From the NCBI RefSeq assembly GCF_008974245.1, contig NZ_BBZI01000005.1, positions 716,180 to 780,179 of the forward strand: 64,000 nucleotides of DNA, read 5' to 3'. Shown here in pieces: positions 31,749-45,522 of this stretch. Source of the stretch: Streptomyces abyssomicinicus. GTDB lineage: Bacteria > Actinomycetota > Actinomycetes > Streptomycetales > Streptomycetaceae. The notes beneath the pieces are model-generated. The model did no database searches and had not been told where the DNA came from. It saw only the letters and a program-made list of their open reading frames with translations. Numbering within the stretch: the stretch's first letter is position 1; the number at the start of each line of letters is the position of its first letter. A program made the position numbers and the translations under genes.

Positions 31749-31928
31749 ATGGAGAACATCGACGTCATCGAGCTGGACGACGACATCGTCGAGTTCGAGT
31801 CCGCGGAGGACAACGCGGCGAACGTGGCCAACGTGGCGAACGTCGCCAACGTGGCGAATGTCGCCAACGTCGCCAACGTCGCCAACGTGGCGAACGTGGC
31901 GAACGTCGCCAACGTGGCGAACGTCTAG
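31749..31928 (+). CDS. candidate RiPP precursor peptide with twelve Ala-Asn-Val repeats
   Basis: 59 residues: a 23-residue acidic N-terminus (MENIDVIELDDDIVEFESAE, then DNA), followed by exactly twelve ANV triplets to the stop. The N-terminus looks like a leader (ten Asp/Glu, amphipathic VIELDDDIVEFE). The repetitive C-terminus looks like a core, or several identical cores. There is no Cys, Ser or Thr in the repeats, so lanthionine, azole or thiopeptide chemistry is excluded; Asn side chains or the backbone would be the only targets. It is the first gene of the cluster, with a strong ribosome site, and a hairpin separates it from the enzymes. The product class is not recognised. A structural repeat peptide is an alternative. 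Confidence 0.75.
   Translation: MENIDVIELDDDIVEFESAEDNAANVANVANVANVANVANVANVANVANVANVANVANV
31818..31925 (+). repeat. twelve 9-bp tandem repeats encoding Ala-Asn-Val
   Basis: The unit is GCSAAYGTS. All variation lies at third codon positions (GCG/GCC, AAC/AAT, GTG/GTC), so the encoded tripeptide is invariant. Array ends coincide with the reading frame and the stop codon. Confidence 0.95.
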
Positions 31929-31937
31929 TTGAGGCCG

Positions 31938-31964
31938 GGTGGCGGGAAAATCCCTCCCGTCACC
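31938..31964 (+). terminator. hairpin between precursor peptide and biosynthetic genes
   Basis: GGTGGCGGGA / TCCCGTCACC with a 7-nt loop (one G-U pair), 10 bp after the peptide stop. As in many RiPP operons it may act as a partial terminator or 3' stabiliser, giving excess peptide mRNA over enzyme mRNA. Confidence 0.55.
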
Positions 31965-31996
31965 CCGTCCTTTCCTCATGGAAGAACTCCGAATTG

Positions 31997-33160
31997 ATGG
32001 CGGGACCCTCTGGCGGGGCTCCTGCGCAACCTGCTGAAAGGCAAAACGTAACTGTGGCGCGCTCGGTGATCGAAGAAAAGCTGCAAGCGGCCCGCATATT
32101 GGCGGAGGCCCTTACCGCTGACGACAACGGATCGATCGATTCGATGTACATAGCGGGAAGTCTGACGGCCGGCCTCGGTAATCCCACGAGTGATGCCGAC
32201 CTTTTCGTTCTCTACACCGACGAGTCCGCAATGGGCGACGACGTCACGCAGTACAACGTGAACGGCCACCGGGTCGACGTGGAGCGGTACACGCTCGCGT
32301 ACGTCGAGGAGGCGGTCGACACGATCACCTCGTTCGAGCTGCGCCGTGACAACCTGACGGAACTTCACAAGCTGCCGGGCCAACTGGACTTCGTGTGCCG
32401 CCTGTACACGTCAGAGATCGTCGCGCCCTCGCCCGCGCTCGACGGGTTCAAGCAGCGGATCGACTCGTCCATCGCCAACATCCGCCAGGTAGCGGTCAAT
32501 TACTCCGCCATCGCGGTCAACGGGCACCTCGAGGACTTCCTCGGCGCCTCCGTCGACGGCGACTACGAGACCGCCGCGCTCGTCGGTCAGGAGTTGACCG
32601 CCTACGCCGGCAAAGCCGTCGTGGCCGCCTCCGGCGATCTTTATTACAGCAAGAAGTGGGTCTACAAGCAGCTCGACCGCACGCCTGTCGAGGGGTTCCC
32701 CAAGGACACCTTCGTCGACTTCCAGCGAGGCAACTGGACCGACCGCGGCAACAGCGCCGCCGAGGACCTGGTGTTCTTCGTGCAGACCTGTGTGGCCGCG
32801 AGCCAGCTGCTCAGCCGCCACGACGTCTCCCTGGACGCCTGGCCCTGGACGGTACCGGCCGGGCAGTCCGGCGAGCGCCTCTGGCGCAACCCCTCGTACA
32901 ACGTGCTCGGGCAGAGCGACGGAATCCTGCTCCACTGGGAGCTGCGCCGCCAGCTGATGCTGCGTGACCCCGCCGCCTTCGTGTGGGCACTGTGCGACGG
33001 CCGCGACCCGCAGGGCGTCGTCGATGCCGTGCAGCGGCTGGCCGAGCACGTCCCCGCGCTCAAGACCCTGACCCCCGAGCGCATCGAGCGTCTGCTCGAA
33101 TCCCTGCGCTCGCGTGACCTTGTCAGCGACGAGCCGTACTCCGTGCTCGGCACCATCTGA
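31997..33160 (+). CDS. nucleotidyltransferase-domain protein with PqqD-like C-terminal domain
   Basis: 387 residues. Residues 50-70 read MYIAGSLTAGLGNPTSDADLF, the GSx(n)SDxD motif of the minimal-nucleotidyltransferase/pol-beta fold. D66 and D68 of SDAD should bind metal, and a further Asp (VDVER) follows. The middle is a helical region. Residues about 298-387 (NPSYNVLGQSDGILLHW, AFVWALCDGRDPQGVVDAV, then ERIERLLESLRSRDLVS) resemble a PqqD-type winged helix, the leader-binding RRE domain of RiPP enzymes. An enzyme that transfers a nucleotidyl group to a leader-bound peptide is the inferred role. The start could also be GTG 32054. It is not the short MNT antitoxin type. Confidence 0.75.
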   Translation: MAGPSGGAPAQPAERQNVTVARSVIEEKLQAARILAEALTADDNGSIDSMYIAGSLTAGLGNPTSDADLFVLYTDESAMGDDVTQYNVNGHRVDVERYTLAYVEEAVDTITSFELRRDNLTELHKLPGQLDFVCRLYTSEIVAPSPALDGFKQRIDSSIANIRQVAVNYSAIAVNGHLEDFLGASVDGDYETAALVGQELTAYAGKAVVAASGDLYYSKKWVYKQLDRTPVEGFPKDTFVDFQRGNWTDRGNSAAEDLVFFVQTCVAASQLLSRHDVSLDAWPWTVPAGQSGERLWRNPSYNVLGQSDGILLHWELRRQLMLRDPAAFVWALCDGRDPQGVVDAVQRLAEHVPALKTLTPERIERLLESLRSRDLVSDEPYSVLGTI

Positions 33161-33175
33161 TCGGCAGCGAGACCC

Positions 33176-34540
33176 ATGGCAGTGACGACGAGCCGGACCA
33201 CACCGGCCAACGGAACCGAGGAACTGCTCGAGGTGGCCCGGTGGGCCGTCGAGCAGCTCGGCAGGTCGGCGCAGTACGCGCAGGCCTACGCGGAGCGCAC
33301 CGTCGAGGTGCGCGTGGAGTGCCTGGACGGAGAGGCGCTCGCCACCTGCGTCGAGCCCCGCGAGGGACTGGCGTGCATGGTCCGGCAGGACGGCCGCTGG
33401 CGCCACCGCACGTTCTCCGTCGTCGAACTGCCCTCACTGCCCCGGTGGCTCGGCTCCGGCGAGGTGCCCGGCGCGGAGGGCCCCCCGCCGTGGCCGGACC
33501 CGCAGGAGGTGGAGTTCACGGCCGTCGCCGCGCGGGACTGGCTGATCCAGGACGCGCCCGCGGCCCACTCCCTGCGCACCATGGAGGACTTCACCGCCCG
33601 CGGCATCGCCGTCGTCGACACCGACGGCGTGCGCTCGGCGGCCACCTCGCGGCTGGTGCGACGCCGTGTGGAAGCCACCGTCGAGCACGACGGGAACCGC
33701 TTCCGCGGACTGAACCGCTGGCTGGAGCGCGGCCCGCGGGCCGGCGGAGCCGACCGCGACGGCGTGCCGCAGGACGTGGCGCGGACCGCGCTGGAGCACG
33801 CGCGCAACTCCGCGCGGGCGGACCTCGGCGGTCGCCACCGCACCCCCGTCGTCTTCGGGCCGTCCGCCGCGGTGGGCCTGTTGCACGAACTCGTCGGGCA
33901 CGCCCTCGAGGGCGACAACTTCGCGATGCAGAGCGACTACATCGCCAAGCTCCGCAAGCCGGGCGCCGTCCCCGCATCGGTCACGATGTACGACGACGCC
34001 ACCCTCGCGGACGGCTACGGCTCCTACGACATCGACGACGAGGGCTTCGCCGGCGGCACCACCGTGCTGGTGTCCCAGGGCGAACTCGGCTCGCCGCTGT
34101 CCTCCGTCCGTACGGCGCAGCGCCACGGCTACCGGCCCACCGGCAACGGGCGCCGCCGCGACTACCGGGCACTGCCGCTGCCCCGCGCCAGCAACACCGT
34201 GGTGCCACGCGGCACGGAGGATCCGCGGGCACTGCTCGCCCCGTCCGCCGACGGCCTGCTCCAGGTCGGATGCCTGGGCGCCGGGATGATCGACCTCCGC
34301 AGCGGAGAGTTCCATTTCGCCGCGCTGAACTGCACCTACATCACTCCGGAAGGGCACCGCGTCCCGGTACGCGACGTCAGCCTCTTCGGCGACGCCCTGG
34401 AGACCCTCGCCCGCCTGGAGGGCACGGGTTCGGACTTCGGCGGCGACAGCGTCACGTGCGGGAAGCAGGGCCAGATGCTCGGCATCGGCCTGTTCTCCCC
34501 GTCGATGCGCTTCTCCGCACTGGATTGGAGCGCAGCGTGA
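33176..34540 (+). CDS. TldD-like metalloprotease subunit
   Basis: 454 residues. The active site HELVGH (residues 237-242, in AVGLLHELVGHALEGDNF) is the HExxxH motif of TldD. The conserved metal-ligand Cys is in VTCGKQGQMLGIG (about residue 428). A glycine-rich YGSYDIDDEGF precedes the second half, as in the family. TldD works with TldE to digest unfolded peptides, and the pair removes leaders in microcin B17 and other RiPP pathways. Here it probably matures or degrades the ANV peptide. GTGA overlap with the TldE-like gene supports complex formation. Confidence 0.92.
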   Translation: MAVTTSRTTPANGTEELLEVARWAVEQLGRSAQYAQAYAERTVEVRVECLDGEALATCVEPREGLACMVRQDGRWRHRTFSVVELPSLPRWLGSGEVPGAEGPPPWPDPQEVEFTAVAARDWLIQDAPAAHSLRTMEDFTARGIAVVDTDGVRSAATSRLVRRRVEATVEHDGNRFRGLNRWLERGPRAGGADRDGVPQDVARTALEHARNSARADLGGRHRTPVVFGPSAAVGLLHELVGHALEGDNFAMQSDYIAKLRKPGAVPASVTMYDDATLADGYGSYDIDDEGFAGGTTVLVSQGELGSPLSSVRTAQRHGYRPTGNGRRRDYRALPLPRASNTVVPRGTEDPRALLAPSADGLLQVGCLGAGMIDLRSGEFHFAALNCTYITPEGHRVPVRDVSLFGDALETLARLEGTGSDFGGDSVTCGKQGQMLGIGLFSPSMRFSALDWSAA

Positions 34541-35889
34541 AGGTCCTCAACCGCCGGGCGGACCAGGCGATCGCCGTGGCCGAGACCGTGCAGGCGGCTC
34601 TGCACCCCACGGAGAGCGCGGCCACGTTCCTGGAACGGTCGGCGCGCCGCCGGCTCGTGTGCGACGCGAGCGGGAAGAAGCAACTCCTCGTCGAGGACCC
34701 CGCCTTCAGCGGATTCGTACGGCTGGAGCGCGACGGGCGGGAGCTGTACCTCAACGCCGGCCAGCCGACCGTCCCGACCGCGGCCCGGCTTCTGGCGACG
34801 GGCCGCCCCCTCTTCTCCCTGGGCAGCCCCGCCGCGGACGGGGGACGTCCGCACGCCCACCCGTCCCGGCAGACCGCCCAGGGGGACTGGCACACCACCC
34901 GGGACCGCCTCGACATGAGCGCCGCGGCCTCCCGAACGGGCGCGCTCATGGAGGCCGTGGGCGAAGGGCTGCGGCCCGGGCAGGCCGTGGCCGGACTGCA
35001 CGTGAGCGACATCCTGCGCGAGGCCGTGTTCCTGGACAGCGGCGGCGCCCGGCTCGAGGACCAGTGCTACGGCGTCGAGCTGACGGCCGTGGTCGTCGGC
35101 GAGGACGGCTCGCACATGGTGTCGGCCACGCGCTACGCGACCGCGCTCGACGACATCGACCCGGTGGAACTGGGACGCGAACTGAGCGTGCTGCAGACCG
35201 CCATGGGTGCCGCCGGGCAGCCGTTCACGGGCACCCGCGTCGTCCTCACCCCGTCCGCCACCGCCCAGCTGCTCCGGGCCCTGGTGAACACCATCCTGCT
35301 CAACCCCCTCGCCCACCCCGTGCCCCTGGCCGCCTCCCTCCTCGACGAGGGACCGTGCGCGGCGGGCTACGGCGCCCGGACCTTCGACTGCGAGGGCACC
35401 CCGACCGGAAGCGCGGAACTGGTCGGCCGCGACGGCCGCCAGCGCCCCGTCGCCACGCGCAAGACGGCTCTCGCCGACGACGGTCCCCTCGCGGCGGCGC
35501 CCCTGACCGGCCACGCCTGGTGGAACCCGCTGAAGAACTTCCCGCAGCCGACCGCCGGCAACGTCCGGATGACCCCGACGGCCGGCACCACCGCCCGCGG
35601 CCTGCTGGCCGGCGAGCGCTGCGTGGTCGCGGACGCCCGGACGCTGGGCGTCGAGGAGTTCCGCTCCGGCGGTCAGCTGGCGTTCCGGCTCCTGGCGGCC
35701 CGCACCGTGGACGGTGTCCCCCAGGAGGCCTACGCCCCGTTGTCCGTGGAGGGACCGGCCATCGACTTCCTCTCCTCGGTCACCGCGGTCGGCGACGACG
35801 TGTCCTATTTCCCGGGCCAGATCTCGGCGGGCGGAGCCTACCTGGAGATGGACCTCACCCGGATCACCTCGAAGGCAGTGCGATCATGA
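34537..35889 (+). CDS. TldE/PmbA-like protease subunit
   Basis: 450 residues. N-terminal region similar to TldD/PmbA (ADQAIAVAETVQAALHP). The C-terminal half ends with a family-typical GPAIDFLSSVTAVGDDVSYFPG and a closing strand. No HExxxH motif is present, as expected for the non-catalytic TldE partner. Two Cys near residues 275-285 (EGPCAAGYGARTFDCEGTP) are unusual. Coupled to TldD by GTGA and to the ABC ATPase by ATGA. The ATG-less start (GTG 34537) is fixed by the overlap. Confidence 0.85.
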   Translation: MKVLNRRADQAIAVAETVQAALHPTESAATFLERSARRRLVCDASGKKQLLVEDPAFSGFVRLERDGRELYLNAGQPTVPTAARLLATGRPLFSLGSPAADGGRPHAHPSRQTAQGDWHTTRDRLDMSAAASRTGALMEAVGEGLRPGQAVAGLHVSDILREAVFLDSGGARLEDQCYGVELTAVVVGEDGSHMVSATRYATALDDIDPVELGRELSVLQTAMGAAGQPFTGTRVVLTPSATAQLLRALVNTILLNPLAHPVPLAASLLDEGPCAAGYGARTFDCEGTPTGSAELVGRDGRQRPVATRKTALADDGPLAAAPLTGHAWWNPLKNFPQPTAGNVRMTPTAGTTARGLLAGERCVVADARTLGVEEFRSGGQLAFRLLAARTVDGVPQEAYAPLSVEGPAIDFLSSVTAVGDDVSYFPGQISAGGAYLEMDLTRITSKAVRS

Positions 35890-36833
35890 CTCTGACAGAC
35901 GGAGGGCTCGAAGCCCGCGGGCTCGTACGCGAGTTCACAGCGAAGGACGGCTCCGTACGGCGCGCGGTCGACGACGTGTCCCTGGTCGTGCGACCCGGTG
36001 AACTCGTCTCCGTGCTCGGCCCCAACGGCGCGGGCAAGACCACCACGGTCAAGATGCTCACCGGCCTGCTCCTGCCGACCGCCGGACAGGTCCTCGTCGA
36101 CGGGCACGACGTCGTGCGCGCCCGCCGTCGCGCGGCCATGGCCTGCGGCTTCAGCCTCGGCGGCGACACCGGTCTGTACCCGAGACTGACCGCCCACCAG
36201 AACCTGGAATTCTTCGGCCTCATGTACGGGCTGCGCGGCGCCCGCCTCGCGGAGCGGGCCCGCCACCTGCTCGCGGAGGTGGACCTCGAGGACCGCTCGG
36301 GCGACCTCGTGGGCTCCTTCTCGCGCGGCATGAAGCAGCGCCTGCACCTGGCGCGGGCGCTCCTGCACGAGCCGTCCGTGCTGATCCTGGACGAGCCCTC
36401 CGCCGGCCTCGACCCCCAGTCGGCCGCCGCCATGCGAGCCCTCGTCGCCCGCCTCACCGGGGAGGGCCGCAGCATCCTGCTGACCACCCACGACATGCGG
36501 GAGGCCGAGGAGCTCAGCAGCCGCGTGGTCCTGATGAAGGGCGGTCGCATCCACGTGGAGTCGACCGCCGGCGAGCTGCGGCTGAACGCGGCGGGCCGCC
36601 TGGGCCACGTCGTCAACGTGGTCTTCTCCACCCCCGAGGCACCGGACGGACTCCAGGAGTGCCCGGGCGTCATGAACGTGGAGCACGCGGGCTCCGCCGT
36701 CACCCTGCGCGTGTCCGACGGGGCGGCCGCGGTGCAGTGGGTGCTGGCCCGGTTCCCCGGCCGGACCACCAGCGTCGCCGTCACCCCGCCCACCCTCGAA
36801 GAGGTCTTCCTCGACATGGTGGCGGCGTCATGA
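35886..36833 (+). CDS. ABC transporter ATP-binding protein
   Basis: 315 residues. Walker A GPNGAGKTTT (about residues 44-53), Q-loop region LTAHQNLEFFGL, an atypical signature FSRGMKQRLHLARALL, Walker B VLILDEPSAGLD and H-loop LLTTHD. A C-terminal extension follows, as in ABC-2-type exporters (DrrA/NatA). It partners the two permease genes downstream and probably exports the finished peptide or provides self-immunity. ATGA overlaps on both sides place it firmly in the operon. Confidence 0.93.
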   Translation: MTLTDGGLEARGLVREFTAKDGSVRRAVDDVSLVVRPGELVSVLGPNGAGKTTTVKMLTGLLLPTAGQVLVDGHDVVRARRRAAMACGFSLGGDTGLYPRLTAHQNLEFFGLMYGLRGARLAERARHLLAEVDLEDRSGDLVGSFSRGMKQRLHLARALLHEPSVLILDEPSAGLDPQSAAAMRALVARLTGEGRSILLTTHDMREAEELSSRVVLMKGGRIHVESTAGELRLNAAGRLGHVVNVVFSTPEAPDGLQECPGVMNVEHAGSAVTLRVSDGAAAVQWVLARFPGRTTSVAVTPPTLEEVFLDMVAAS

Positions 36834-37684
36834 CCCCCTCACCCACCGGCACCGGCACCGGCACCGGCACCGGCACCGGCACCGGCACCGGCACCGGCAC
36901 CGCGGCCGCGCCGCGGCGGCGCGGCGGACGGTCCGGCACCGGAGCGACCTTCGTCCGGGCCGTCACGGACCAGCTGCGGATGCACGCGACCAGCCCGATG
37001 GCCATCTTCTCCACCCTGGCCATGCCGTGCGTCTTCGCGTTCGTCGTGCACGCCAACGCCACGGACGGCTTCTCCCGGCACACCACCGACGACATGGCCG
37101 TGGGCTCGGCGGGCATCGGCATGCTCGACTCGATCATCGTGCTGCTCCTGTTCAGCATGCTCGGCGAGAAGCAGTGGCGGACGCTCCACGCCGCGCTGGG
37201 CAGCCCCGGAGGCCTCGTCCCCGTGGTCCTGGGCAGGCTGACCGGCACCGCCCTCCAGTCGGTGACCGCCCTGCCGGGAACCCTGATCGTCCTGGGCCTG
37301 CTGTTCGGCATCGACGGCGGGTTCGACTGGGGCCGCTGGCTCGTCGGCGGGGTCCTGCTGGCCTTCGCCACCGCCTCCGTGATCGGGCTCCTCGGCTTCG
37401 CCGTCCTGCGCTTCCCCTTCTCGGCCGGCATGACCAACGGCCTGACCGGTCTGGTCATGGCGCTCAGTGCCCTGATCGTGCCCCAGTCCGCCCTCCCGGC
37501 CCCCGTGCAGAAGCTCGCCCTGATCCTGCCGCAGTCCCACGTCATGGCCTGGATCCGCGGCGCCGGGCCGGAACAGCTGCTCGCGGCGGTCGCCCTGACC
37601 GGTTTCTTCTGCGCACTGGTCGTGGTCGCCGTCCAGCGGCTCGAGACCACCGTGCGCCGGAACGCCCTGCCGCTGGAGGCCTGA
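36830..37684 (+). CDS. ABC-2 type transporter permease
   Basis: 284 residues. An N-terminal Thr-Gly repeat (nine TG units) encoded by a hexanucleotide microsatellite precedes an Arg-rich stretch. About six membrane segments follow (AIFSTLAMPCVFAFVVHA, LPGTLIVLGLLFG, LVGGVLLAFATASVIGLLGFAV, GLTGLVMALSALIVP, AVALTGFFCALVVVAVQRL). The pattern matches ABC-2 permeases. The TG repeat is probably cytoplasmic and non-essential. It pairs with the permease at 37686. Confidence 0.88.
   Translation: MTPSPTGTGTGTGTGTGTGTGTGTAAAPRRRGGRSGTGATFVRAVTDQLRMHATSPMAIFSTLAMPCVFAFVVHANATDGFSRHTTDDMAVGSAGIGMLDSIIVLLLFSMLGEKQWRTLHAALGSPGGLVPVVLGRLTGTALQSVTALPGTLIVLGLLFGIDGGFDWGRWLVGGVLLAFATASVIGLLGFAVLRFPFSAGMTNGLTGLVMALSALIVPQSALPAPVQKLALILPQSHVMAWIRGAGPEQLLAAVALTGFFCALVVVAVQRLETTVRRNALPLEA
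36845..36898 (+). repeat. nine tandem ACCGGC hexanucleotides inside the permease gene
   Basis: Perfect microsatellite encoding (Thr-Gly)9. Unit changes keep the frame, so length variation would be tolerated. Confidence 0.95.
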
Positions 37685-37685
37685 C

Positions 37686-38480
37686 ATGCGAACCCCCACC
37701 CCGGCCCCCCAGGGCGGTGCGCTGCGCGCCGCGCTGCGTGGCGCGGCGCTCTCCTACCGGGCCCTGTTCACCTGGTTCAACCCGCTGGGCTACCTCAGCT
37801 CGCGCATCGTCCGGCCGATCGGCATGGCCATCGCCTTCACCTCCCTGGCGACCCACTACGGCGCGGGAGCCGACCGCATGATGATCGCCTCCAGCCTGCT
37901 GGCCGGCGCCGGCGCGGTCGTGTACGGAATGGCCCTTTCGATCGGCAACGAGCGCTCCTTCAACACGCTCGGCGCATGGCTGGCCTCGCCCCAGAACAAG
38001 GTCGCGGCGGCCGGCCAGCGCGCCCTGCCGCACATCGTGGACGGGTTCGTCGGAGGCCTGTGCACCTACCTCGTGTGCGCCCTGCTGTACATGACACTGC
38101 CGATCGGCGTCCCGCAGTACGCCCTCCTGCTGGCCGTGGGCGTGCTGACGACCGCGGGGTTCGGGCTGACGCTCTCGGCCGTGGCCCTGCTCCTCGAGGA
38201 CCTCTTCGTCGGCCCCAACATGGCCGAACTCGTCCTCATGGTCCTGTCGGGGACGCTGGTCCCCCAGGACCGGCTGCCGGCCTTCCTGGTCCCGCTGAGC
38301 CGGGCGATGCCCCTCAGCCACGTCATGGAGGCCGTCGACGGCCTCCTCGCCGGCCGGCCGCACGGTACTCCCTTGCTGGTCGAACTCGCCGTCGGCGGCG
38401 CATGGGCCCTCGCCGGTGTGCTCTTCGTGCACCTGGCCGCCCGCCGCGCGACGACGCGTCTCGCGCTCGGCACCTCCTGA
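37686..38480 (+). CDS. ABC-2 type transporter permease
   Basis: 264 residues with about six membrane segments (FNPLGYLSSRIVRPIGMAIAF, LLAGAGAVVYGMALSIG, YLVCALLYMTLPIGV, LLAVGVLTTAGFGLTLSAVALLLE, MAELVLMVLSGTLVP, LLVELAVGGAWALAGVLFV). The LVPQDRLPAFLVPLSRAMPLSHVMEAV segment is typical of ABC-2 permeases before the last helix. It starts 1 bp after the first permease's stop. The two unlike permeases and one ATPase make a heteromeric exporter. Confidence 0.88.
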   Translation: MRTPTPAPQGGALRAALRGAALSYRALFTWFNPLGYLSSRIVRPIGMAIAFTSLATHYGAGADRMMIASSLLAGAGAVVYGMALSIGNERSFNTLGAWLASPQNKVAAAGQRALPHIVDGFVGGLCTYLVCALLYMTLPIGVPQYALLLAVGVLTTAGFGLTLSAVALLLEDLFVGPNMAELVLMVLSGTLVPQDRLPAFLVPLSRAMPLSHVMEAVDGLLAGRPHGTPLLVELAVGGAWALAGVLFVHLAARRATTRLALGTS

Positions 38481-38508
38481 ACATCCTTCGGAAAGAGAAA
38501 GAAGACAA

Positions 38509-39789
38509 GTGAGCAACCCTCAGATGTCCGCGTGGTCCGCGAACGCGTGGATCGACCCGCGCGGCACCTTCGCCGGCCCGGTCCAGCACAAGGACGGCCT
38601 CGTCACCCCCGGCGCACTGACGGCCGCCCCGCTGGGCGACACCGAGCCCTACCTGGTCCCGTCGCTGCCCGTCGAGGTCCACTGCCACGGCCTGGGCAAG
38701 GTCGACTTCTCCAACTTCGCCGAGATCGACCTCTTCGAGGTCGACAAGCACGCCGCCTCCGAAGGCCTGCTCTGCATCCCCACGCTGTACCTGCGCCAGG
38801 AGCGCCTGGACGGCTTCGTCGAGTTCATGCGCGGCTTCGCCGCCCTCAAGGCCGACGGCCAACTCCCCTTCGTCCCGGCCATCGCCCTCGAGGGCCCGCT
38901 CGTCGCCAGCTTCGGCGGCACGCCCGCCAGCTCGGTGTGGGCGCCCTCCAAGGAGGAGTGGGAGAAGCTCGCGAGCTGTGGCCCCCTCGGCCTCGTCTAC
39001 ATCATGCTGTCGCCCGACGCCCTGCAGTCCAGCTCCTACCTGGCCGCGCAGTTCACCCCGGACCACCCGTCCCTGGAGTGGATCGTCACCCGGCTCGTCG
39101 AGAGCGGCGTCCGGCCGGCCCTGGGCCACTTCGCCAAGGAGGACCCGCAGCTCGGAGCCGACTGCGTCGAGGAGGTCCTCGCCACGGCCGAGGCCGCCGA
39201 GTGCCCGCACTCCGGCGTCCGGGTCGTCACCGACCACCTCTTCAACGAGATGCCGCTGCTGATCAAGCACGCCTTCCGCACCTCCAAGGCGCGCGCCAAC
39301 CGCGACGCGCTGCTCGCCGGCTACGACCTGCCGTCGTGGAACCTGGCAGACCTCCACGAACAGGTCGGCCCGGTCCCCGCCGCCATCATGCGCGGCGCCC
39401 ACGCGGGACGCATCGCCGCCTGCCTCAACTTCGACGGCGAGCACGTCGACTTCGCCATCGCCAAGCGCGCCATCGAGATCGTCGGCCCGCAGAACATGAT
39501 GCTGATGACGGACCGCAGCGACGTCGCCCGGCTCGCCGGCCAGGACCTGCACCAGGAACCCGGAAGCGACCTGTGGTACCAGGAGAAGGGCGTGGTCGCC
39601 GCGGGCACGCAGCCCATCGACCAGCAGATCGCCAACGTCCGTGCCCTGGGCGTAGCCGAGGCCGACATCTGGCACCTCGTGTCCTTCACGGCGTACCGCA
39701 CCTTCTTCCCCGAACTGGACCTCGCCGCTTCGGAGTTCACCCAGAGCTGCCACGTCGACGCCGAGCGCCTGCGCCGCGCGCTGATCTGA
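38509..39789 (+). CDS. NagA-like amidohydrolase
   Basis: 426 residues. It resembles N-acetylglucosamine-6-phosphate deacetylase: metal motif VEVHCHG (HxH), then FVPAIALEGPLVASFGGTP equivalent to the HLEGPF motif, VVTDHLFNEMP equivalent to THLFNAM, LNFDGEHVDFAIAKRA equivalent to DGxHV, and MMLMTDRSDVARLAG equivalent to the catalytic VTDA Asp region. Amino-sugar metabolism is not evident around it, so it may deacylate or deamidate a pathway intermediate, for instance an N-acyl group or Asn side chain of the peptide (speculative). The GTG at 38509 is chosen; ATG 38524 is possible. Confidence 0.78.
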   Translation: MSNPQMSAWSANAWIDPRGTFAGPVQHKDGLVTPGALTAAPLGDTEPYLVPSLPVEVHCHGLGKVDFSNFAEIDLFEVDKHAASEGLLCIPTLYLRQERLDGFVEFMRGFAALKADGQLPFVPAIALEGPLVASFGGTPASSVWAPSKEEWEKLASCGPLGLVYIMLSPDALQSSSYLAAQFTPDHPSLEWIVTRLVESGVRPALGHFAKEDPQLGADCVEEVLATAEAAECPHSGVRVVTDHLFNEMPLLIKHAFRTSKARANRDALLAGYDLPSWNLADLHEQVGPVPAAIMRGAHAGRIAACLNFDGEHVDFAIAKRAIEIVGPQNMMLMTDRSDVARLAGQDLHQEPGSDLWYQEKGVVAAGTQPIDQQIANVRALGVAEADIWHLVSFTAYRTFFPELDLAASEFTQSCHVDAERLRRALI

Positions 39790-39826
39790 GCGCACCGCGC
39801 GCACCACCCGAGAGACCGAGGCGAAC

Positions 39827-40783
39827 ATGAGGAGCACCGGAATGGAGACGCAGCGTTCCACCGAACGCCCCCACGACATCCCGCGGGAACTGCTGGACGC
39901 CGTCACACGCTCGCCCGTCAAGGCGCACCTGTTCGGCATCGACACCTACACGCGGGAAGCCGCCTGGACGTTCCGCGACCACACAGGCGAACTGCTGCGC
40001 ACCGCGCTGTGCGTCCTCAAGCCCGATGCCGCCGTGGGGCGGCGCTACGGCGCCGCCCTCCAGGCACTGGCGGACAACGGGTTCCGTCCCGTCGACGTCC
40101 TGCGCTTCCGGCACGACCGGTTGTCGATCCGCGAGACCTGGCGCTTCCAGCTCAACTTCGCCGACCGCGAGCGCATCGCCACCATGGAGCTGTACCTGCG
40201 CTCCCTGGACTGCGTCCTGCTCGTCCTGCGCGACGAGCGCCACCGGGCCGGTGCGGTGCCGGCCGCCGTCCGGCTCGCCGCCCTCAAGGGCCCCGCCACC
40301 GCCGAACTGCGCAGGCCCGAGCATCTGCGGGAGCGCCTGGGCGCGCTCAACGGCCTGTTCAACTTTCTCCACACGACCGACGAGCCCATCGACGTCCTGC
40401 GCGACCTCGGGCTGCTGCTCGAGCCCTCGCGTCGCGAACTCGTGCGTGAGCGCATGGTCTCGGGTCACGACGCGACCGACGAGACGCGGCGGATCCGCGA
40501 GGAGGTCGAGGGCTCCGTCCCCGAGCACGACCTCGACCCGGACGCCGGCTGGCGACGGCTGGAGAAGTCCGGCTCCCCCGCGGGGGCACTGGCCCGCGCC
40601 CGTGCCCGGGGAGCCGCCGTCACCCCTGCCGAACTGCTCCGTGCGGCACACCATCCGGACGCCGACCCGGGCGACCTGTGGGACCTGCTCGCGGTCCTCA
40701 CCGCCACCGTGCGCTTCAACACCCCCGGCATCGAGCGTATCTACCCCAACGTCCTGCTCGGCGCCTGGCAGGAGCCGGCATGA
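39827..40783 (+). CDS. NDPK-like domain protein 1
   Basis: 318 residues. Residues about 56-195 follow nucleoside diphosphate kinase. CVLKPDAAVGRRYGAAL matches the KPDA strand (K65), the FRPVDVLRF segment follows, and NGLFNFLHTTDEPIDVLRDL aligns with the NxxHGSDS active-site loop, so the phosphorylatable His (H182) is kept. The usual GPV and GTIRGDF parts are altered, and an extra C-terminal domain of about 110 residues is present. It is unlikely to be a housekeeping Ndk (about 140 residues). A phosphotransfer or nucleotide-supply role in the pathway is inferred. ATG 39842 is an alternative start. A paralogue is at 41965. Confidence 0.75.
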   Translation: MRSTGMETQRSTERPHDIPRELLDAVTRSPVKAHLFGIDTYTREAAWTFRDHTGELLRTALCVLKPDAAVGRRYGAALQALADNGFRPVDVLRFRHDRLSIRETWRFQLNFADRERIATMELYLRSLDCVLLVLRDERHRAGAVPAAVRLAALKGPATAELRRPEHLRERLGALNGLFNFLHTTDEPIDVLRDLGLLLEPSRRELVRERMVSGHDATDETRRIREEVEGSVPEHDLDPDAGWRRLEKSGSPAGALARARARGAAVTPAELLRAAHHPDADPGDLWDLLAVLTATVRFNTPGIERIYPNVLLGAWQEPA

Positions 40784-40995
40784 GCCCGGTCACCATCTGC
40801 GTGTGCCACCACGTCACCGAGGACGAGATCGTCGGCTGGATCCGCCGCGGCGTGACCACCGTCGAGGGCCTGGGCGAGCACTGCGACGCCGGACAGGGAT
40901 GCGGGGACTGCCGCGAGTCGCTCGAGGAACTGATCGAGGACTTCGGCGACGAGTCCGGTGCCGACGGCGCGCTGGCGGTGAGCCGTGCGCAGTGA
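40780..40995 (+). CDS. Bfd-like [2Fe-2S]-binding protein
   Basis: 71 residues. CVCHHVTEDEIVGWIRRG and GQGCGDCRESLEELI contain the CxC...CxxC four-cysteine pattern of the BFD-like [2Fe-2S] domain found in bacterioferritin-associated ferredoxin and at the end of NirB-type reductases. It should carry electrons. Possible partners in the operon are the MOSC and cupin-like proteins (inferred). ATGA overlap with the upstream NDPK-like gene and an 11-bp overlap with the next gene. Confidence 0.88.
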   Translation: MSPVTICVCHHVTEDEIVGWIRRGVTTVEGLGEHCDAGQGCGDCRESLEELIEDFGDESGADGALAVSRAQ

Positions 40996-41968
40996 CCCCG
41001 CGGAGATGACGCGCTTCTGGCGTGCCGCACTCGACGAGGCCACCCGGCCGCCCCTGGAGGTGAGGCTGACCGAGCAGGACACCCCGCTGGCCGGCTGCAC
41101 CGTCCACGACGCCTCCTTCGCCGGGGCCCGCGGCCACCGCGTCGCGGCCTGGTACATCCGCCCCGCCGGACACGCCGACGGCCGACAGCTGCCCTGCACC
41201 GTGCAGTTCCTCGGCTACGGCGAGGGCCGCGGGCACGCCCTGGACCGCCTCCTGTGGCCGGCCCTCGGCTACGCCACGCTGGTCGTCGACACCCGCGGCC
41301 AGAGCGGCGCCGGGGGCCGCGCGGGCGCCACCCCCGACCCCGTCGGGCTGACGCATCCGCAGATCCCGGGCTTCACCACGCGCGGCATCCTCGACCCGGA
41401 CACCTACTACTACAGGGACGCGTACATCGACGCGGTGCGCGCCGTCGCCGCCGCCGCGGAACTCCCCGGCGTCGACGCCGGGCGCATCGCGACCACCGGC
41501 TGCAGCCAGGGCGGGCAGCTGGCGCTCGCCGCCGCCGTGCTCAGCCCCCAGGTCGCCGCCGCGCTCGTCGAGTCGCCCTTCCTCGCCGCGCTGCCCGACC
41601 TCACCCGGGTCCCCGACCGGCAGCCCTACCGGGAGCTGCTGCGCTTCGCCGAGGCGTACCCCGGCCTGGCCGCCCGCGCGTCCAGGACCCTCGGTCTCTT
41701 CGACGTGGCGGAACTCGCCTCCCACGGCCGCTGTCCCGCACTGTTCTCGGTGGCCGGCAAGGACCAGCGGTGCCTGCCGGACACGGGGTACGCCACGCAC
41801 GACCGCTACCCGGCGGAGAAACGGCTGGTGACCTGGCCGCTGGCCGAGCACGCCGCCCCCAACACGCCGCTGCGCCTCGCCGAGGCGGAGTTCCTGGCCG
41901 ACGTCTTCGCCCAGGCACCGGCCTCCCACCGGGCCCCCGCCTTCTGGCAGGAAGGACACGACAGATGA
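40985..41968 (+). CDS. alpha/beta hydrolase, acetylxylan-esterase (CE7)-like
   Basis: 327 residues. CE7 signatures are seen in modified form: DTRGQSGAG (usual RGQ), the nucleophile elbow TTGCSQGGQLALAAA (usual GGSQGG), and WPLAEHAAPN carrying the catalytic His. The N-terminal AAWYIRPAG-type segment is also family-like. CE7 enzymes deacetylate xylo-oligosaccharides and cephalosporin C. In this cluster it may remove an O-acyl protecting group or cleave an ester in the pathway product. GTG start overlapping the ferredoxin gene; ATGA overlap with the next. Confidence 0.85.
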   Translation: MRSDPAEMTRFWRAALDEATRPPLEVRLTEQDTPLAGCTVHDASFAGARGHRVAAWYIRPAGHADGRQLPCTVQFLGYGEGRGHALDRLLWPALGYATLVVDTRGQSGAGGRAGATPDPVGLTHPQIPGFTTRGILDPDTYYYRDAYIDAVRAVAAAAELPGVDAGRIATTGCSQGGQLALAAAVLSPQVAAALVESPFLAALPDLTRVPDRQPYRELLRFAEAYPGLAARASRTLGLFDVAELASHGRCPALFSVAGKDQRCLPDTGYATHDRYPAEKRLVTWPLAEHAAPNTPLRLAEAEFLADVFAQAPASHRAPAFWQEGHDR

Positions 41969-42921
41969 GACGCCTGCACCCCGACAGTCCGCCCGTCGCC
42001 CAGCTGACCGAGGTCCCGTCCGACCTCCTCGACACCGTCACCTGGTCGGAGCGCAAGGCCGACCTGTACGCGGTCGACCAGTACTTCCGCGAGGCGAGCT
42101 GGACCTTCGGCGACATCGTCCCGCAGATGCTCGGCATCGCCCTGTGCATGCTCAAGTCCGAGGCGACCGCCGGCCGCAGGCTGCGGCCCGCGCTGCGCAT
42201 CCTGCGGGAGGCGGGCTTCTGCCCCGTCGACGTCATCCCGTTCCGGCACGACCGGCTGACCATCCGCGAGGTGTGGCGCTACCAGTTCAACATCGCCGAC
42301 CGCCGGCGCATCGAGGCCATGGACGTCATCCTGCCGAGCACCCGGACCGTCGCCCTGGTCCTGAAGGACGAGCGGTGGCACCCCGGCGCGATCCCCGCCG
42401 CGGTCAGGCTGAACGGTCTCAAGGGGCCGGCCGACCCGCGCCTGCGCCGGCCGGAGCACCTGCGCCACCAACTCGGCGTGGTCAACGGCCTGTTCAACTT
42501 CACCCACATCTCGGACGAGCCGGCGGACGTGCTCCGCGAACTCGCCGTCATCTGCGACGAGCCGCGGCGCGAACTGGTACGCCGGCGGATCCTCCAGGAC
42601 CACGACGCCAGGCCCGAGGCCCTGGCCGTCTTCCAGGAGCTGGAGGACCGGCACCCGGAGCACGACTTCGACCTCGAGAACAGCTGGCAGCGCCTCGCCG
42701 CCGGGCCCGGCCCGCTCGGGGAGGCCGGCACGCGGCGCCCGGACCTGGAGGAGATGCTCGACCTTACCCGGCGCACCCCGCTGGACAGCCCGCACCGCTG
42801 GGACCTGCTGACCGTGGTCACCCACCTGCTGACCGAGATGAACGTCGGCGACGTGGGCCCCATCGTCCCGAACGTGACCGAGGCATGGGCGCCGGAACGA
42901 CTTCAGGAGGCCGCCTCGTGA
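41965..42921 (+). CDS. NDPK-like domain protein 2
   Basis: 318 residues, the same length as and collinear with the protein at 39827. The lysine motif reads CMLKSEATAGRR instead of KPDA, but the active-site loop NGLFNFTHISDEPADVLREL keeps the His (H181). Both proteins share a C-terminal block ending in VPNVTEAW / YPNVLLGAW. The divergent phosphate-binding motif suggests the two act on different substrates, or form a heteromer with one fully active subunit. ATGA overlap with the CE7-like gene and GTGA overlap with MOSC. Confidence 0.75.
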   Translation: MRRLHPDSPPVAQLTEVPSDLLDTVTWSERKADLYAVDQYFREASWTFGDIVPQMLGIALCMLKSEATAGRRLRPALRILREAGFCPVDVIPFRHDRLTIREVWRYQFNIADRRRIEAMDVILPSTRTVALVLKDERWHPGAIPAAVRLNGLKGPADPRLRRPEHLRHQLGVVNGLFNFTHISDEPADVLRELAVICDEPRRELVRRRILQDHDARPEALAVFQELEDRHPEHDFDLENSWQRLAAGPGPLGEAGTRRPDLEEMLDLTRRTPLDSPHRWDLLTVVTHLLTEMNVGDVGPIVPNVTEAWAPERLQEAAS

Positions 42922-43577
42922 CCGCGGTGCTCGCCACGCTCAACCTCGGCGTGGAGCGGCGCGGTCCCTGGACCGGCACCGGCCGCAGCGGTATCGACAA
43001 ACGTCCCGTGGAGCACCGCGTGACGGCCCGCCGCGAGGGACTCGAAGGCGACCTGGTCGCCGACCGGCGCGTCCACGGCGGACCGGACAAGGCGGTGTAC
43101 GCCTTCGCCCGCGAGGACGCCGCGTTCTGGGAGGAGGAGCTCGGTCGGGAGATCGCCCCGGGGAACTTCGGCGAGAACTTCTCGACCACGGGCCTGAACG
43201 TCACGGACGCCGAGGTCGGTGAGCAATGGGCCATCGGCGAGGCGGTCTTCGAGGTCATCCGCGCCCGCAAGCCCTGCCGCGTCTTCGCGGGCTTCTGGGA
43301 GGTCCCGGACCTGGTCAAGCGCTTCATCGCGCACGGGGCGCCCGGCGCCTATCTGCGGGTCCTGAAGGAGGGCACGGTCGGAGCGGGCGACCCCGTCGAG
43401 ATCATCAAGCGGCCCGGCCACGGGGTGACCATCGGCTACATGCTCAGGGCGCTGACCACGGAACCGCACCTGATGCCCCGTTTCCTGGACGCCCCGGAAA
43501 TGCTGCCCAAACACCATGAGAAGGCCCGCAAGTGGCTGGCCGCCCGAGAACAGGAACTGGAGAGATCCACCCCATGA
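42918..43577 (+). CDS. MOSC domain protein (YiiM-like)
   Basis: 219 residues. DRRVHGGPDKAVYAFAREDAAFWEEELGREIAPGNFGENFSTTGL is the classic MOSC N-terminal segment. The conserved Cys lies in VIRARKPCRVFAGF (about residue 118), and a YiiM-like alpha-helical C-terminus follows. MOSC proteins bind molybdenum cofactor and take part in sulfur transfer or N-hydroxylamine reduction. With the Bfd-like ferredoxin next door, a reductase acting on an N-oxygenated intermediate is conceivable. GTGA overlap with the preceding gene, ATGA with the next. Confidence 0.88.
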   Translation: MTAVLATLNLGVERRGPWTGTGRSGIDKRPVEHRVTARREGLEGDLVADRRVHGGPDKAVYAFAREDAAFWEEELGREIAPGNFGENFSTTGLNVTDAEVGEQWAIGEAVFEVIRARKPCRVFAGFWEVPDLVKRFIAHGAPGAYLRVLKEGTVGAGDPVEIIKRPGHGVTIGYMLRALTTEPHLMPRFLDAPEMLPKHHEKARKWLAAREQELERSTP

Positions 43578-44239
43578 CAACCACCGCATCGCAGCCCCTG
43601 ATCGACCCGGGCCGGCTCGCCGCCCTGGACTGGTCGGACCTGCCCGCCCTGCACCGGCCTATGGAGGACCTGCTCGAGGAACTGGTCTCCCACCCGACGT
43701 GGCTCAACGACGCCTTCGACCACGTCCTGTCCACGCCGGAACTGCTCAACCAGTGCGAGCGGCTCCAGGAGCTCGACCGCGTCGTCCTCGTCAACGACAA
43801 GGCCAGCGACGTCCGGGTCCGGCTGCACGTGTTCACCGGCAGCGACTTCGACCGCCCGCACAACCACCGCTGGAGCTTCGGCTCCCGCATCCTGCACGGC
43901 AGCTACCAGCACCACCTCTTCGGCGACTACGAGGAGCTGGACACCGACACCCGCATCGGCAGCCCCGCGCTGGTGCGTGACGAGGTCGCGGGCTCGGGCT
44001 ACGTGATCCGCCACACCATGGTGCACACCGTCAGCTCCGAGCCGGACACCACGTCCCTCATCGTGCGCGGTCCCTCGGAGAAGGACCGCTTCGTGGTGAT
44101 GAACCGCGACACCGGCGAGGCGTGGTGGCAGTACGGCCAGAAGGACGAGAAGCCCGAGGACCAGGCCCGTCGTCGGCTGGGCGCCGAGCGCGTGGAGGAG
44201 ATCAGGCAGCTCCTCGTCAGCCAGGGCTGCATCCGTTGA
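43574..44239 (+). CDS. cupin-like protein of unknown function
   Basis: 221 residues. The central part reads VRLHVFTGSDFDRPHNHRWSFGSRILHGSYQHHLF, with HxH and further His typical of a cupin metal site. A second strand, GYVIRHTMVHTVSSEPDTTSLIVRG, supplies His in the C-terminal cupin motif. I do not recognise a named family. It could be a non-heme iron oxygenase of the cysteine-dioxygenase shape or a metal-dependent isomerase. The N-terminal 60 residues are helical. Within the operon it is coupled on both sides (ATGA, TTGA). Confidence 0.65.
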   Translation: MTTTASQPLIDPGRLAALDWSDLPALHRPMEDLLEELVSHPTWLNDAFDHVLSTPELLNQCERLQELDRVVLVNDKASDVRVRLHVFTGSDFDRPHNHRWSFGSRILHGSYQHHLFGDYEELDTDTRIGSPALVRDEVAGSGYVIRHTMVHTVSSEPDTTSLIVRGPSEKDRFVVMNRDTGEAWWQYGQKDEKPEDQARRRLGAERVEEIRQLLVSQGCIR

Positions 44240-44946
44240 CCGGCATTCTCCCCGCGCGGGAGCCGGTCGAGCTCGTCGTCTTCGACTGCGACGGCGTGCT
44301 CGTGGACAGCGAGCCCATCGCCGTGCGGACGCACGTCGCCCTGGGCGCCGAACTGGGCTGGCCGCTGAGCGAGTCCGACGTCATGAACCGCTTCGTCGGC
44401 CGCTCGACCACCTCCATCGGCGAGCAGATCGCCGAGCGCCTCGGCGAGGAGACGGCCCGCACCTGGGGCGAGCGGTTCCAGGAGATGCACTCCGTGGCCG
44501 TCGACGAGAGCCTGGCCCCGGTCGACGGCATCGTGGAGGCCCTGGACGGCCTGGAACGAGCCGGCCTCGGACCGGCCAACTGGTGCATCGCCTCCAGCGG
44601 CAGCCACGAGAAGATGCGCCACACCCTGGGCAAGGTGGGCCTTTACGAGAGGTTCGCCGGGCGGATCTTCAGCGCCCACGAGGTCGAACGGGGCAAGCCC
44701 GCACCGGACCTCTTCCTCCACGCCGCGCGGCGGATGGGCGTCGACCCGTCGCGTTGCGTCGTCGTGGAGGACAGCAAGTTCGGGGTCCAGGCGGCCACCG
44801 CCGCCGGGATGCGTTCCGTCGGATACGCGGGGGGCCTCACCCCGGCGCAATGGCTCACCGGGCTCGCGACGGCCGTCCTCACCGACATGCGCCTCCTGCC
44901 CGCCCTGGTCACGGCGAGGGAGACGGCGGATGCCACTGGAGATTGA
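44236..44946 (+). CDS. HAD family hydrolase (beta-phosphoglucomutase-like)
   Basis: 236 residues if the rare TTG at 44236, which overlaps the previous stop, is the start. I see no better start before the first motif. Motif I is LVVFDCDGVLVDSE (DxDG), motif II CIASSGSHEKM, motif III GKPAPDLFLHAARRMG with the Lys, and motif IV CVVVEDSKFGVQAA. This is HAD subfamily I of phosphatases and phosphomutases. It may dephosphorylate a pathway intermediate or a released nucleotide. It overlaps the CYTH gene by 17 bp. Confidence 0.88.
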   Translation: MTGILPAREPVELVVFDCDGVLVDSEPIAVRTHVALGAELGWPLSESDVMNRFVGRSTTSIGEQIAERLGEETARTWGERFQEMHSVAVDESLAPVDGIVEALDGLERAGLGPANWCIASSGSHEKMRHTLGKVGLYERFAGRIFSAHEVERGKPAPDLFLHAARRMGVDPSRCVVVEDSKFGVQAATAAGMRSVGYAGGLTPAQWLTGLATAVLTDMRLLPALVTARETADATGD

Positions 44947-45454
44947 GCGCAAGTTCCTGCTCGGGGCCGAGACTGCTGCCGGGGCCGGGGCCGGGGCCGG
45001 GGCCGGGGCCGGAGCCGGGGCCGTTCCGCCCGCGACGGCGACGGAGTCCATCGAGCAGGGCTACCTCGCCGTCACCGACGACGGCACCGAGGTGCGCCTG
45101 CGCCGCATCGCGGGCCGGTGCGTCCTCGGGGTCAAGCGGGGCAACGGGGGACTCTCCCGCACCGAGGTCGAGTGCCCGCTCACGGAGCAGGAGTTCGAGG
45201 AGCTCTGGCCCGCCACGGCGGGGGCCAGGCTGGTGAAGACCCGGTACTCGGTCCCCGCGCAGGGCACCGTCGCCTCCGTGGACGTCTACGGGGCGGAGCT
45301 GTCCGGCCTGCGCACCGTCGAGGTCGAGTTCCCCTCCGAGGAGGCGGCGAGGGCGTTCACACCGCCCGACTGGTTCGGCGCCGAGATCACCGGGGCGAAG
45401 GAGTACAAGAACCGCCGCCTGGCGGTCGAGGGAATCCCCGGTACGAGGGGCTGA
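44930..45454 (+). CDS. CYTH domain protein
   Basis: 174 residues. It starts MPLEIERKFLL with the ExExK motif of CYTH (triphosphate tunnel) enzymes. Basic and acidic tunnel strands follow (TEVRLRRIAGRCVLGVKRG, RTEVECPLTEQEF, TRYSVPAQGTVASVDVY, RTVEVEFPSEEAARAF, KEYKNRRLAV). The fold hydrolyses or binds triphosphates such as polyphosphate, thiamine triphosphate or ATP. A Gly-Ala repeat loop, encoded by a GGGGCC microsatellite, interrupts the first beta-hairpin. It is the last gene of the operon, followed by a strong hairpin. Confidence 0.88.
   Translation: MPLEIERKFLLGAETAAGAGAGAGAGAGAGAVPPATATESIEQGYLAVTDDGTEVRLRRIAGRCVLGVKRGNGGLSRTEVECPLTEQEFEELWPATAGARLVKTRYSVPAQGTVASVDVYGAELSGLRTVEVEFPSEEAARAFTPPDWFGAEITGAKEYKNRRLAVEGIPGTRG
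44981..45022 (+). repeat. seven GGGGCC hexanucleotides inside the CYTH gene
   Basis: Six perfect GGGGCC units and one GGAGCC, encoding an alternating Gly-Ala stretch. This is a second in-frame microsatellite within the same operon. Confidence 0.93.
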
Positions 45455-45473
45455 CCCGGGGCCACACGCAGGC

Positions 45474-45522
45474 GCCCCGTCGCCCCGTCGCCCCGTCGCC
45501 CCGTCGACCCGTCGACGGGGCG
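45474..45522 (+). terminator. octamer repeats merging into a 12-bp hairpin, end of RiPP-like operon
   Basis: Four tandem GCCCCGTC units (45474-45505) lead into a perfect inverted repeat, CGCCCCGTCGAC / GTCGACGGGGCG (45497-45522). It lies 20-70 bp after the CYTH stop. Confidence 0.65.

Follow-up and report, generated by a model that had tools for sequence, protein, structure and literature searches.

The region described here lies in Streptomyces abyssomicinicus (RefSeq assembly GCF_008974245.1, contig NZ_BBZI01000005.1), in a stretch of 64,000 nucleotides (positions 716,180 to 780,179 of the forward strand) that is called the window below and numbered from its first letter. A gene for a 59-residue peptide, most of which is a tripeptide repeat, is followed on the same strand by 15 genes, the last ending at 45454, and the system is a candidate new class, an undescribed variant within the pathways for ribosomally synthesised and post-translationally modified peptides (RiPPs). 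The peptide starts with the ATG at 31749, reads MENIDVIELDDDIVEFESAEDNA and then (ANV)12, and stops at 31926-31928; its head comprises 23 residues, and the whole peptide has a pI of 4.05, a charge of about -10.5 and a monoisotopic mass of 6033.91. Among the 16 genes, 9 of the 15 junctions overlap, eight by 4 bases and one by 17, and 125 bases separate the peptide gene from the GTG start of the first enzyme gene, a start chosen because homologues begin there. A sigma-70 promoter scan upstream of the cluster gave no match. The CYTH-like gene was taken as the cluster end, because beyond it the window has no gene family in common with its three closest relatives, G400, G424 and G542, in the stretches compared. 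The flanking genes tested look unrelated: a GH15/trehalase-type gene on the opposite strand at the 5' side, and genes for a YCII-domain protein and a sigma-70 family protein at the 3' side.

The preliminary description of this DNA, in which a peptide with an acidic 23-residue head and twelve ANV triplets opens a same-strand run of about 15 genes, was confirmed in its frame, head and gene number. Most of its domain calls score above the Pfam cut-offs; the first ABC-2 protein, both NDPK-like proteins and the CYTH-like protein fall below them, and Pfam matches neither the amidohydrolase nor the cupin-like protein (Table 1).

Table 1. Features of the cluster, with window positions and the basis of each assignment
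Feature	Position	Strand	Basis or remark
Ribosome-binding-site-like GGGGGTGGAG, directly 5' of the peptide ATG	31736..31745	+	Sequence
Precursor peptide gene, 59 aa	31749..31928	+	Nine other loci and four more database proteins have homologues
Leader motif DDIVEF, predicted PqqD-domain recognition site	31779..31796	+	[DE]DI[VL]EF in 10/10 loci
(Ala-Asn-Val)12 repeat, predicted core	31818..31925	+	Units differ at third codon positions only
RNA hairpin between peptide and enzyme genes	31933..31969	+	Folding; probable terminator/attenuator or mRNA stabiliser
NT-PqqD: nucleotidyltransferase with C-terminal PqqD/RRE domain	32054..33160	+	Pfam, alignment, model
TldD-like metalloprotease subunit	33176..34540	+	Pfam, motif check; HExxxH and CGKQGQ kept
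TldE-like partner subunit	34537..35889	+	Pfam
ABC exporter ATPase	35886..36833	+	Pfam above cut-off
ABC-2 membrane protein 1	36830..37684	+	Pfam below cut-off (27.8 vs 31.6; 21.1 vs 26.9)
ABC-2 membrane protein 2	37686..38480	+	Pfam above cut-off
Amidohydrolase, NagA fold	38524..39789	+	Accessory; no Pfam match; fold from model
NDPK-like protein 1, His kept	39842..40783	+	Accessory; Pfam below cut-off
Bfd-type [2Fe-2S] protein	40780..40995	+	Accessory; Pfam above cut-off
AXE1 (CE7-type) esterase	41006..41968	+	Accessory; Pfam above cut-off
NDPK-like protein 2, His kept	41965..42921	+	Accessory; Pfam below cut-off
MOSC-domain protein	42918..43577	+	Accessory; Pfam above cut-off
Cupin-like protein	43574..44239	+	Accessory; by-eye label, no Pfam match
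HAD-family phosphatase	44236..44946	+	Accessory; Pfam above cut-off
CYTH-like protein, last gene	44930..45454	+	Pfam 16.6 bits, cut-off 23.2

The core shared by ten loci

Relatives were sought in public genomes with the nucleotidyltransferase protein carrying the PqqD domain (NT-PqqD), in search sets that overlap and in part include the window's own genome. Matches were found in 3 of 150 relatives and in 15 of 392 genomes within the genus (both at E 1e-10), in 5 of 297 within the family (E 1e-40) and in 3 of 394 within the class (E 1e-20), as well as in 1 of 150 genomes of the family of G770 and 3 of 147 of the order of G093 (both E 1e-20); a species-level genome collection gave five loci. Ten distinct actinobacterial loci combine a close NT-PqqD clade with TldD and TldE, namely the window, Streptomyces seoulensis (G400), G424, Kitasatospora xanthocidica (G542), G473, S. 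viridochromogenes (L006), Catenulispora pinisilvae (G093), Streptomyces sp. SID14478 (L008), G770 and G372. Counts out of ten refer to these loci and exclude G639 (L059) and those nucleotidyltransferases of a set of 36 (25 of them aligned) that were seen outside a genome context. Spread by plasmids was not adopted as an explanation, as it would rest on the single distant match (26% identity) of a plasmid search.

The peptide, NT-PqqD, TldD and TldE are present in all ten loci and the three-gene ABC exporter in nine; in the tenth, that of Catenulispora, an MFS gene occupies the corresponding place. The system had at first been described as built on all 15 genes, a view that has to be narrowed to these constant components. 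Their identities to the window proteins fall together from locus to locus (Spearman 0.86 to 0.95, 8 or 9 loci), as expected of a unit. NT-PqqD passes the Pfam cut-offs for NTP_transf_2 (21.4 bits, cut-off 21) and PqqD (24.4, cut-off 23.4), and its structure model combines a kanamycin-nucleotidyltransferase fold, with ANT(4') enzymes as best fold matches, with a leader-binding domain; the active-site motif GSx10DxD of polymerase-beta-type nucleotidyltransferases is kept on the ANT fold of this predicted enzyme. PmbA_TldD_3rd scores above its cut-off in both TldD and TldE, and the HExxxH metal site of TldD together with a TldE partner was found in 10/10 loci, the TldE of G770 having been missed by tblastn and identified by translation as an open frame. 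Genetic hallmarks of a RiPP pathway are present: the precursor gene is short and combines a conserved leader with a core that varies, an RRE-type (PqqD) domain sits on the candidate modifying enzyme, and a predicted dedicated protease and exporter are encoded in the operon, modification of the core being a prediction.

The peptide gene lies 60-140 bases upstream of NT-PqqD in every locus examined, with a G/A-rich run at the ribosome-binding position. All ten heads contain [DE]DI[VL]EF, and in G770 the whole head is MEDILEF. Each head is followed by an array of x-[N/D]-[V/I/A] triplets, between 5 and 18 in number: (ANV)12 in the window and, elsewhere, (ANV)11 twice, (ANV)12+ANI, 13 units of A/G-N-V/I, ANV+(VNV)4, (ANV)18, an N-I-N repeat of 8 units, (DAV)15+DA and 15 units of V/I-D-V. 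Eight loci have Asn as the fixed residue and two (G770 and G372) have Asp, and all peptides terminate in the same phase, as [ND][VIA]-stop. Peptides G400 and G770 contain no Ser, Thr, Tyr or Cys anywhere, which leaves no unmodified hydroxyl as a possible target in these two. Of the four residues, the peptides of G093 and G372 contain Thr alone, and in the remaining six Ser occurs, outside the repeats. Co-occurrence of peptide and enzymes with a variable repeat number, proposed in the preliminary description as support, is seen in all ten loci, and the finding it named as fatal, homologous clusters with a missing or unconserved peptide, was looked for and did not appear among them.

In the window array all 13 base deviations between units fall at third codon positions. 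Across the ten loci, 5 deviations from the unit consensus fall at the first, 7 at the second and 103 at the third codon position (103/115), with a binomial p of 3.6e-36 against 1/3 that is rough, as units of one array are not independent. Judged from these sequences, the encoded triplets are under purifying selection, and the peptide is not a chance frame, because it is conserved in nine other loci and shows this third-position bias. A protein-database search with the window peptide returned 40 proteins at E <=10; among the 16 inspected, the best four (P0037-P0040) have [DE]DI[VI]EF heads and ANV-type repeats, and the other 12 are low-complexity matches in which the leader motif is absent. The window peptide has no Pfam match, and the ten peptides gave just chance matches in NCBIfam, for two of them (E 2.7-7.3).

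In all ten loci a strong stem-loop forms when the 63-65 bases counted from the peptide stop are folded (z -2.6 to -5.9, with at most 5 of 200 shuffles as good), whereas control stretches within the nucleotidyltransferase gene gave z -1.3 to +1.4. For the window the z value is -4.2 over 61 bases, -3.6 over 65 bases and -2.0 when the whole 129-base gap is folded. An alignment of eight of the ten hairpin regions has only 5 invariant columns of 77, so that shape rather than letters seems to be kept; Rfam returned nothing at gathering score over 31100-46000, and the hairpin is therefore not a listed RNA. It may raise the level of the peptide mRNA relative to that of the enzyme mRNA.

Accessory genes and neighbourhoods

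The set of kinase-like, NagA-like, cupin-like, HAD, MOSC and esterase genes differs from locus to locus. The CYTH-like gene, whose product is presumably of the triphosphate-tunnel type, occurs in six of the ten loci (a tblastn homologue in 5 of 9 non-window loci) and the NagA-fold gene in five. For the Bfd, esterase and MOSC genes the three closest relatives (G400, G424 and G542) alone gave homologues; for the amidohydrolase, cupin-like and HAD genes L008 did so as well. NDPK-like genes lie within the fetched stretch of seven loci, at its very edge in L008; L006 has one in its genome, on another contig, and the whole genomes of G770 and G093 contain none at E 1e-8, which rules these genes out as an obligatory part. 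The fetched stretches of L006 and G770 hold no homologue of the window amidohydrolase, NDPK-like, cupin-like or HAD genes, their remaining neighbours being unannotated.

The relation of the amidohydrolase to NagA comes from its structure model, a sequence search of solved structures being without match; despite the predicted NagA-like fold it scores 10.6 bits against the NagA deacetylase equivalog TIGR00221 (cut-off 225.65). The cupin-like protein gave chance-level matches only in the same kind of search, and absence of a family from the structure-match lists was not taken as exclusion. In the NDPK-like domains the His is kept in 9/9 and the motif Lys in 8/9; the window copies score 16.9 and 17.8 bits with Pfam NDK (gathering 27) and a fused copy in G473 scores 44.3.

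Other genes near the relatives' cores are listed by position, their membership in a pathway being putative. The Catenulispora neighbourhood encodes an ATP-grasp ligase, a luciferase-like monooxygenase, a thioesterase and a carrier-condensation protein; that of G473 an enolase, PhyH, Ppx/GppA, a ClpX-like AAA protein, a double NDPK-like protein, an amidase and an M28 peptidase; and that of L008 a HAD protein, two cupin-like proteins and a weak, below-cut-off thymidylate-kinase match. Near the G372 core are a radical SAM protein, a carbamoyltransferase and a FomB-family kinase and, farther out, by eye from first residues, lookalikes of inositol-phosphate synthase, oxidoreductase, SDR, RidA and PfkB. 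In the window operon no radical SAM gene is present, as the preliminary description had it, and G372 is the one relative among the ten loci with such a gene in its neighbourhood.

A phosphonate product in the window strain was rejected, as its best genome-wide match to the PEP-mutase model reaches 30.9 bits against a cut-off of 319.55. None of ten genomes searched passes that value; G424 reaches 315.3 bits (more than 4 Mb from its cluster), G093 299 and G532 282.3. The PEP-mutase-like gene of Catenulispora (G093:C2:58084-58899, L061) lies on the same contig as its peptide cluster, about 17 kb away. PADLOC, used to look for an anti-phage defence system, matched 0 of the 9 operon proteins submitted (of 15), although absence from its library proves little.

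Of 12 fetched loci with independently picked NDPK-like genes, chosen mostly for their score among 24 positive genomes of 246, 8 have a motif-defined nucleotidyltransferase nearby, a raw count in which some of the motif matches may be due to chance. A recurrent module of a NagA-like amidohydrolase, two cupin-like proteins, an NDPK-like protein, HAD and Bfd is present in L089, L092, L093 and L094 and, rearranged, in L090 and L091; a thymidylate-kinase-like gene joins it in L090 (Pfam-confirmed, with no nucleotidyltransferase in the stretch) and in L091 (by eye). The module looks like a building-block pathway shared by several cluster types. Beside it, L089 (251-15935), one of these fetched loci, encodes a carbamoyltransferase (OTC), PALP, an ornithine-cyclodeaminase-type protein, an AurF-type N-oxygenase, an asparagine-synthase-like protein and a stand-alone PqqD. 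Peptides of 22 residues (MK[KQ]YTKPA[TA]KKVA[FY]GTVL..V.) are encoded at L093:12373-12441 (+), L094:12694-12762 (+) and L092:4006-4074 (-), in clusters with a motif-defined nucleotidyltransferase and, by eye, an asparagine-synthase-like protein and (in L093 and L094) a PqqD-like protein; the peptides resemble lasso leaders, as mini precursors with almost no core.

In L095, L096, L097, L099 and L035 an NDPK-like gene adjoins a nucleotidyltransferase of about 550 residues, with AfsA-like and PEP-synthase-like neighbours by eye. Distant nucleotidyltransferase relatives occur in L026-L029: in L026 beside a B12-type radical SAM protein (TIGR03975, 653.3 bits, cut-off 281.85) and a long protein with a terminal cyclophilin domain, an arrangement that L028 resembles by eye. 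At L036:4794-8288 a nucleotidyltransferase (Pfam below cut-off), a radical SAM/SPASM peptide-maturase-like protein and a 2OG-Fe(II) oxygenase stand in a row, with a 56-residue open reading frame downstream. Within the window itself, six-base tandem repeats encode a Thr-Gly run in ABC membrane protein 1 (36844-36902) and an Ala-Gly run in the CYTH-like protein (44957-45023). At a distance the region is flanked by two GH62 proteins with ricin-type lectin domains (23016-24509 and 52860-54587), the second of which has GH10 and GH6 genes nearby.

A nucleotidyltransferase proposed to act on the repeat

The reading we favour, with a probability of roughly 0.45, is that a new kind of RiPP is made from the (ANV)12 peptide, with the nucleotidyltransferase tagging the side chains of the repeated Asn, or of Asp in two relatives. 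The [DE]DI[VL]EF stretch of the leader would dock on the PqqD (RRE) domain, and the kanamycin-nucleotidyltransferase-like domain would move a nucleotidyl or related phosphoryl-linked group onto Asn/Asp along the repeat with loss of pyrophosphate. TldD/TldE might then trim the leader from the N-terminus up to the first tagged residue or cut the tagged array into short pieces, and the ABC pump would export the product. On a threaded leader, known TldD/E enzymes continue trimming as far as a blocking modification, and they mature a peptide-cytidine microcin (PMC10885120; this and the other PMC numbers stand for the passages cited), which makes such trimming a natural step before ABC export. Where NDPK-like or FomB-like genes are present, their products could convert a special building block that already bears phosphate into a triphosphate-like donor, to be used by the same transferase; a building block of the sugar-phosphate or cyclitol-phosphate kind would fit the NagA-fold and HAD genes, and clusters with neither kinase type would use a common NTP.

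Since the division into Asn (eight) and Asp (two) loci follows the transferase tree, the Asn/Asp side chain is the probable site, a pattern also expected from common descent alone. The modification had been assigned before to Asn side chains or the backbone, as the repeat lacks Cys, Ser and Thr; this composition stands, and the Asp repeats of G770 and G372 show that Asn is not obligatory. In its broader form the proposal is more tentative: a class of RRE-fused polymerase-beta-type nucleotidyltransferases might decorate every Asn/Asp of a tripeptide ribbon with phosphoryl-linked groups, supplied by a donor module that can be exchanged (kinases of the NDPK-like, FomB-like and NMP-kinase-like types together with sugar-phosphate enzymes), giving a multivalent backbone with swapped cargo.

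Several points weigh against the tagging of Asn/Asp. Enzymes of the kanamycin-nucleotidyltransferase fold are, to our knowledge, known to act on hydroxyls, which these side chains do not have. The Asp of two loci means that an amide cannot be the universal target, and the absence of NDPK-like genes from two of ten genomes means that the donor idea does not apply to all clusters. In 4 of the 12 independently fetched loci, moreover, an NDPK-like gene stands without a nucleotidyltransferase, and in the others some of the motif matches may be due to chance. A tripeptide register kept by TldD/E from the N-terminus is not assumed, the heads of 23 (window) and 25 residues (G093) being out of register. 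The cluster is known from its genes alone, with product, modification and expression all predicted. The neighbourhoods with a condensation protein, enolase, ClpX or radical SAM look like different small-molecule pathways, which favours a carrier role for the peptide. In addition, the TldD/E that matures klebsazolicin or the Yersinia microcin is encoded outside the respective cluster (PMC10885120).

As such a carrier, the peptide would be a reusable, pearlin-like scaffold, on whose C-terminus or side chains the accessory enzymes build a small molecule that TldD/TldE releases. This is rather unlikely on balance, even though the accessory genes differ strongly among clusters while peptide, NT-PqqD and TldD/TldE stay, all ten peptides share one end phase, and Amm12/13, a TldD/E-like pair, cuts a C-terminal dipeptide off the ammosamide scaffold peptide (PMC12715798). 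Arrays of 5 to 18 repeats would be hard to explain were the C-terminus all that matters, the operon proteins include no PEARL-type match, and the stretches of L006 and G770 are without homologues of the window accessory genes named above.

Improbable, too, is a nucleotidyl group that serves only for leaving, where NT-PqqD would adenylate oxygens of Asn amides or Asp carboxylates and ring closure or elimination would follow, giving aspartimide-like rings, nitriles or backbone crosslinks in a product free of nucleotide. We know of no polymerase-beta-type nucleotidyltransferase with such an activating role, and the phosphoryl-handling accessory genes would be left unexplained. Acceptance of both Asn and Asp would be accounted for, and in nitrilobacillins a C-terminal amide is adenylated on the way to a nitrile, though by an asparagine-synthetase-like enzyme (PMC13060819).

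The fold matches to antibiotic-modifying ANT(4') enzymes, and the distant nucleotidyltransferase relatives in which no repeat peptide was detected, would suit a peptide that is an unmodified structural, regulatory or immunity partner, with NT-PqqD nucleotidylating a small molecule, for instance in self-resistance like that given by aminoglycoside nucleotidyltransferases. This is quite improbable in view of the PqqD/RRE domain on the enzyme, the linkage to TldD/TldE, the leader motif in 10/10 loci and an Asn/Asp type that tracks the nucleotidyltransferase tree. An untranslated frame or chance GC-rich tandem repeat, suggested by its detection as a simple 9-base repeat, was rejected in view of the conserved head, third-position bias, ribosome-binding stretch and hairpin in ten loci.

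If the tagging of Asn/Asp is correct, the cluster would represent a RiPP class whose first enzyme has the fold of an antibiotic-resistance nucleotidyltransferase and whose repeats, devoid of Cys, Ser and Thr, are closed to the usual RiPP chemistries, and it would yield a genetically programmable multivalent phospho- or nucleotide-peptide. The leader hexapeptide and the hairpin provide a direct search handle for further clusters, and the data point to a recurrent partnership of kinase and nucleotidyltransferase across several actinobacterial pathways.

Comparison with known systems

A precursor of the (xNV)n type with a nucleotidyltransferase and TldD/TldE was not found described in the open-access literature (PMC), subscription papers being outside this scope. 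MccB of the microcin C pathway is a ThiF-like enzyme; ThiF has no match among the peptide and the 15 operon proteins at E 1, and none of the ten peptides ends in Asn, the last residue being V, I or A throughout. Microcin C-like operons share with the cluster a short precursor gene, a hairpin (in microcin C operons a terminator, PMC6495379) that parts this gene from those of the enzymes, Asn-based chemistry, which is predicted for the cluster, and a dedicated exporter. However, MccB puts the nucleotide on one C-terminal Asn (PMC7136475), whereas in the window cluster the Asn/Asp are many and internal, and the nucleotidyltransferase is of the polymerase-beta type and carries a PqqD domain. The Yersinia peptide-cytidine has in common with the predicted pathway its maturation by TldD/E, differing in that its protease lies outside the cluster (PMC10885120).

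Other tailored peptides resemble the system in part. The nucleotidyltransferase homologue PsmN tailors a ribosomal peptide, the lasso peptide pseudomycoidin, and works together with phosphorylation; its target is phospho-Ser on a lasso fold, and RRE fusion, repeats and TldD/TldE are unmentioned in the passage cited (PMC9266682). Daptide clusters are RRE-guided and sometimes encode nucleotidyltransferases, which are ancillary there (PMC10036551), whereas in our loci NT-PqqD is, apart from the protease, the one candidate modifying enzyme that is fixed. Kanamycin nucleotidyltransferase/ANT(4') shares 12% identity with NT-PqqD, which differs in its extra C-terminal PqqD domain and in its operon with a peptide. 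Pearlins (ammosamide, 3-thia-amino acids) also start from a ribosomal peptide, and the ammosamide cluster has a TldD/E-like protease (PMC12715798, PMC10885120). The window operon differs from them in its tandem repeats, in a nucleotidyltransferase as fixed enzyme and in the absence of a PEARL, no lanthipeptide-dehydratase-type Pfam match occurring among the 15 operon proteins, to which this search was confined within the genome. Among its operon proteins the cluster has no match to the defining enzymes of microcin C-like compounds and of pearlins, and its layout resembles both.

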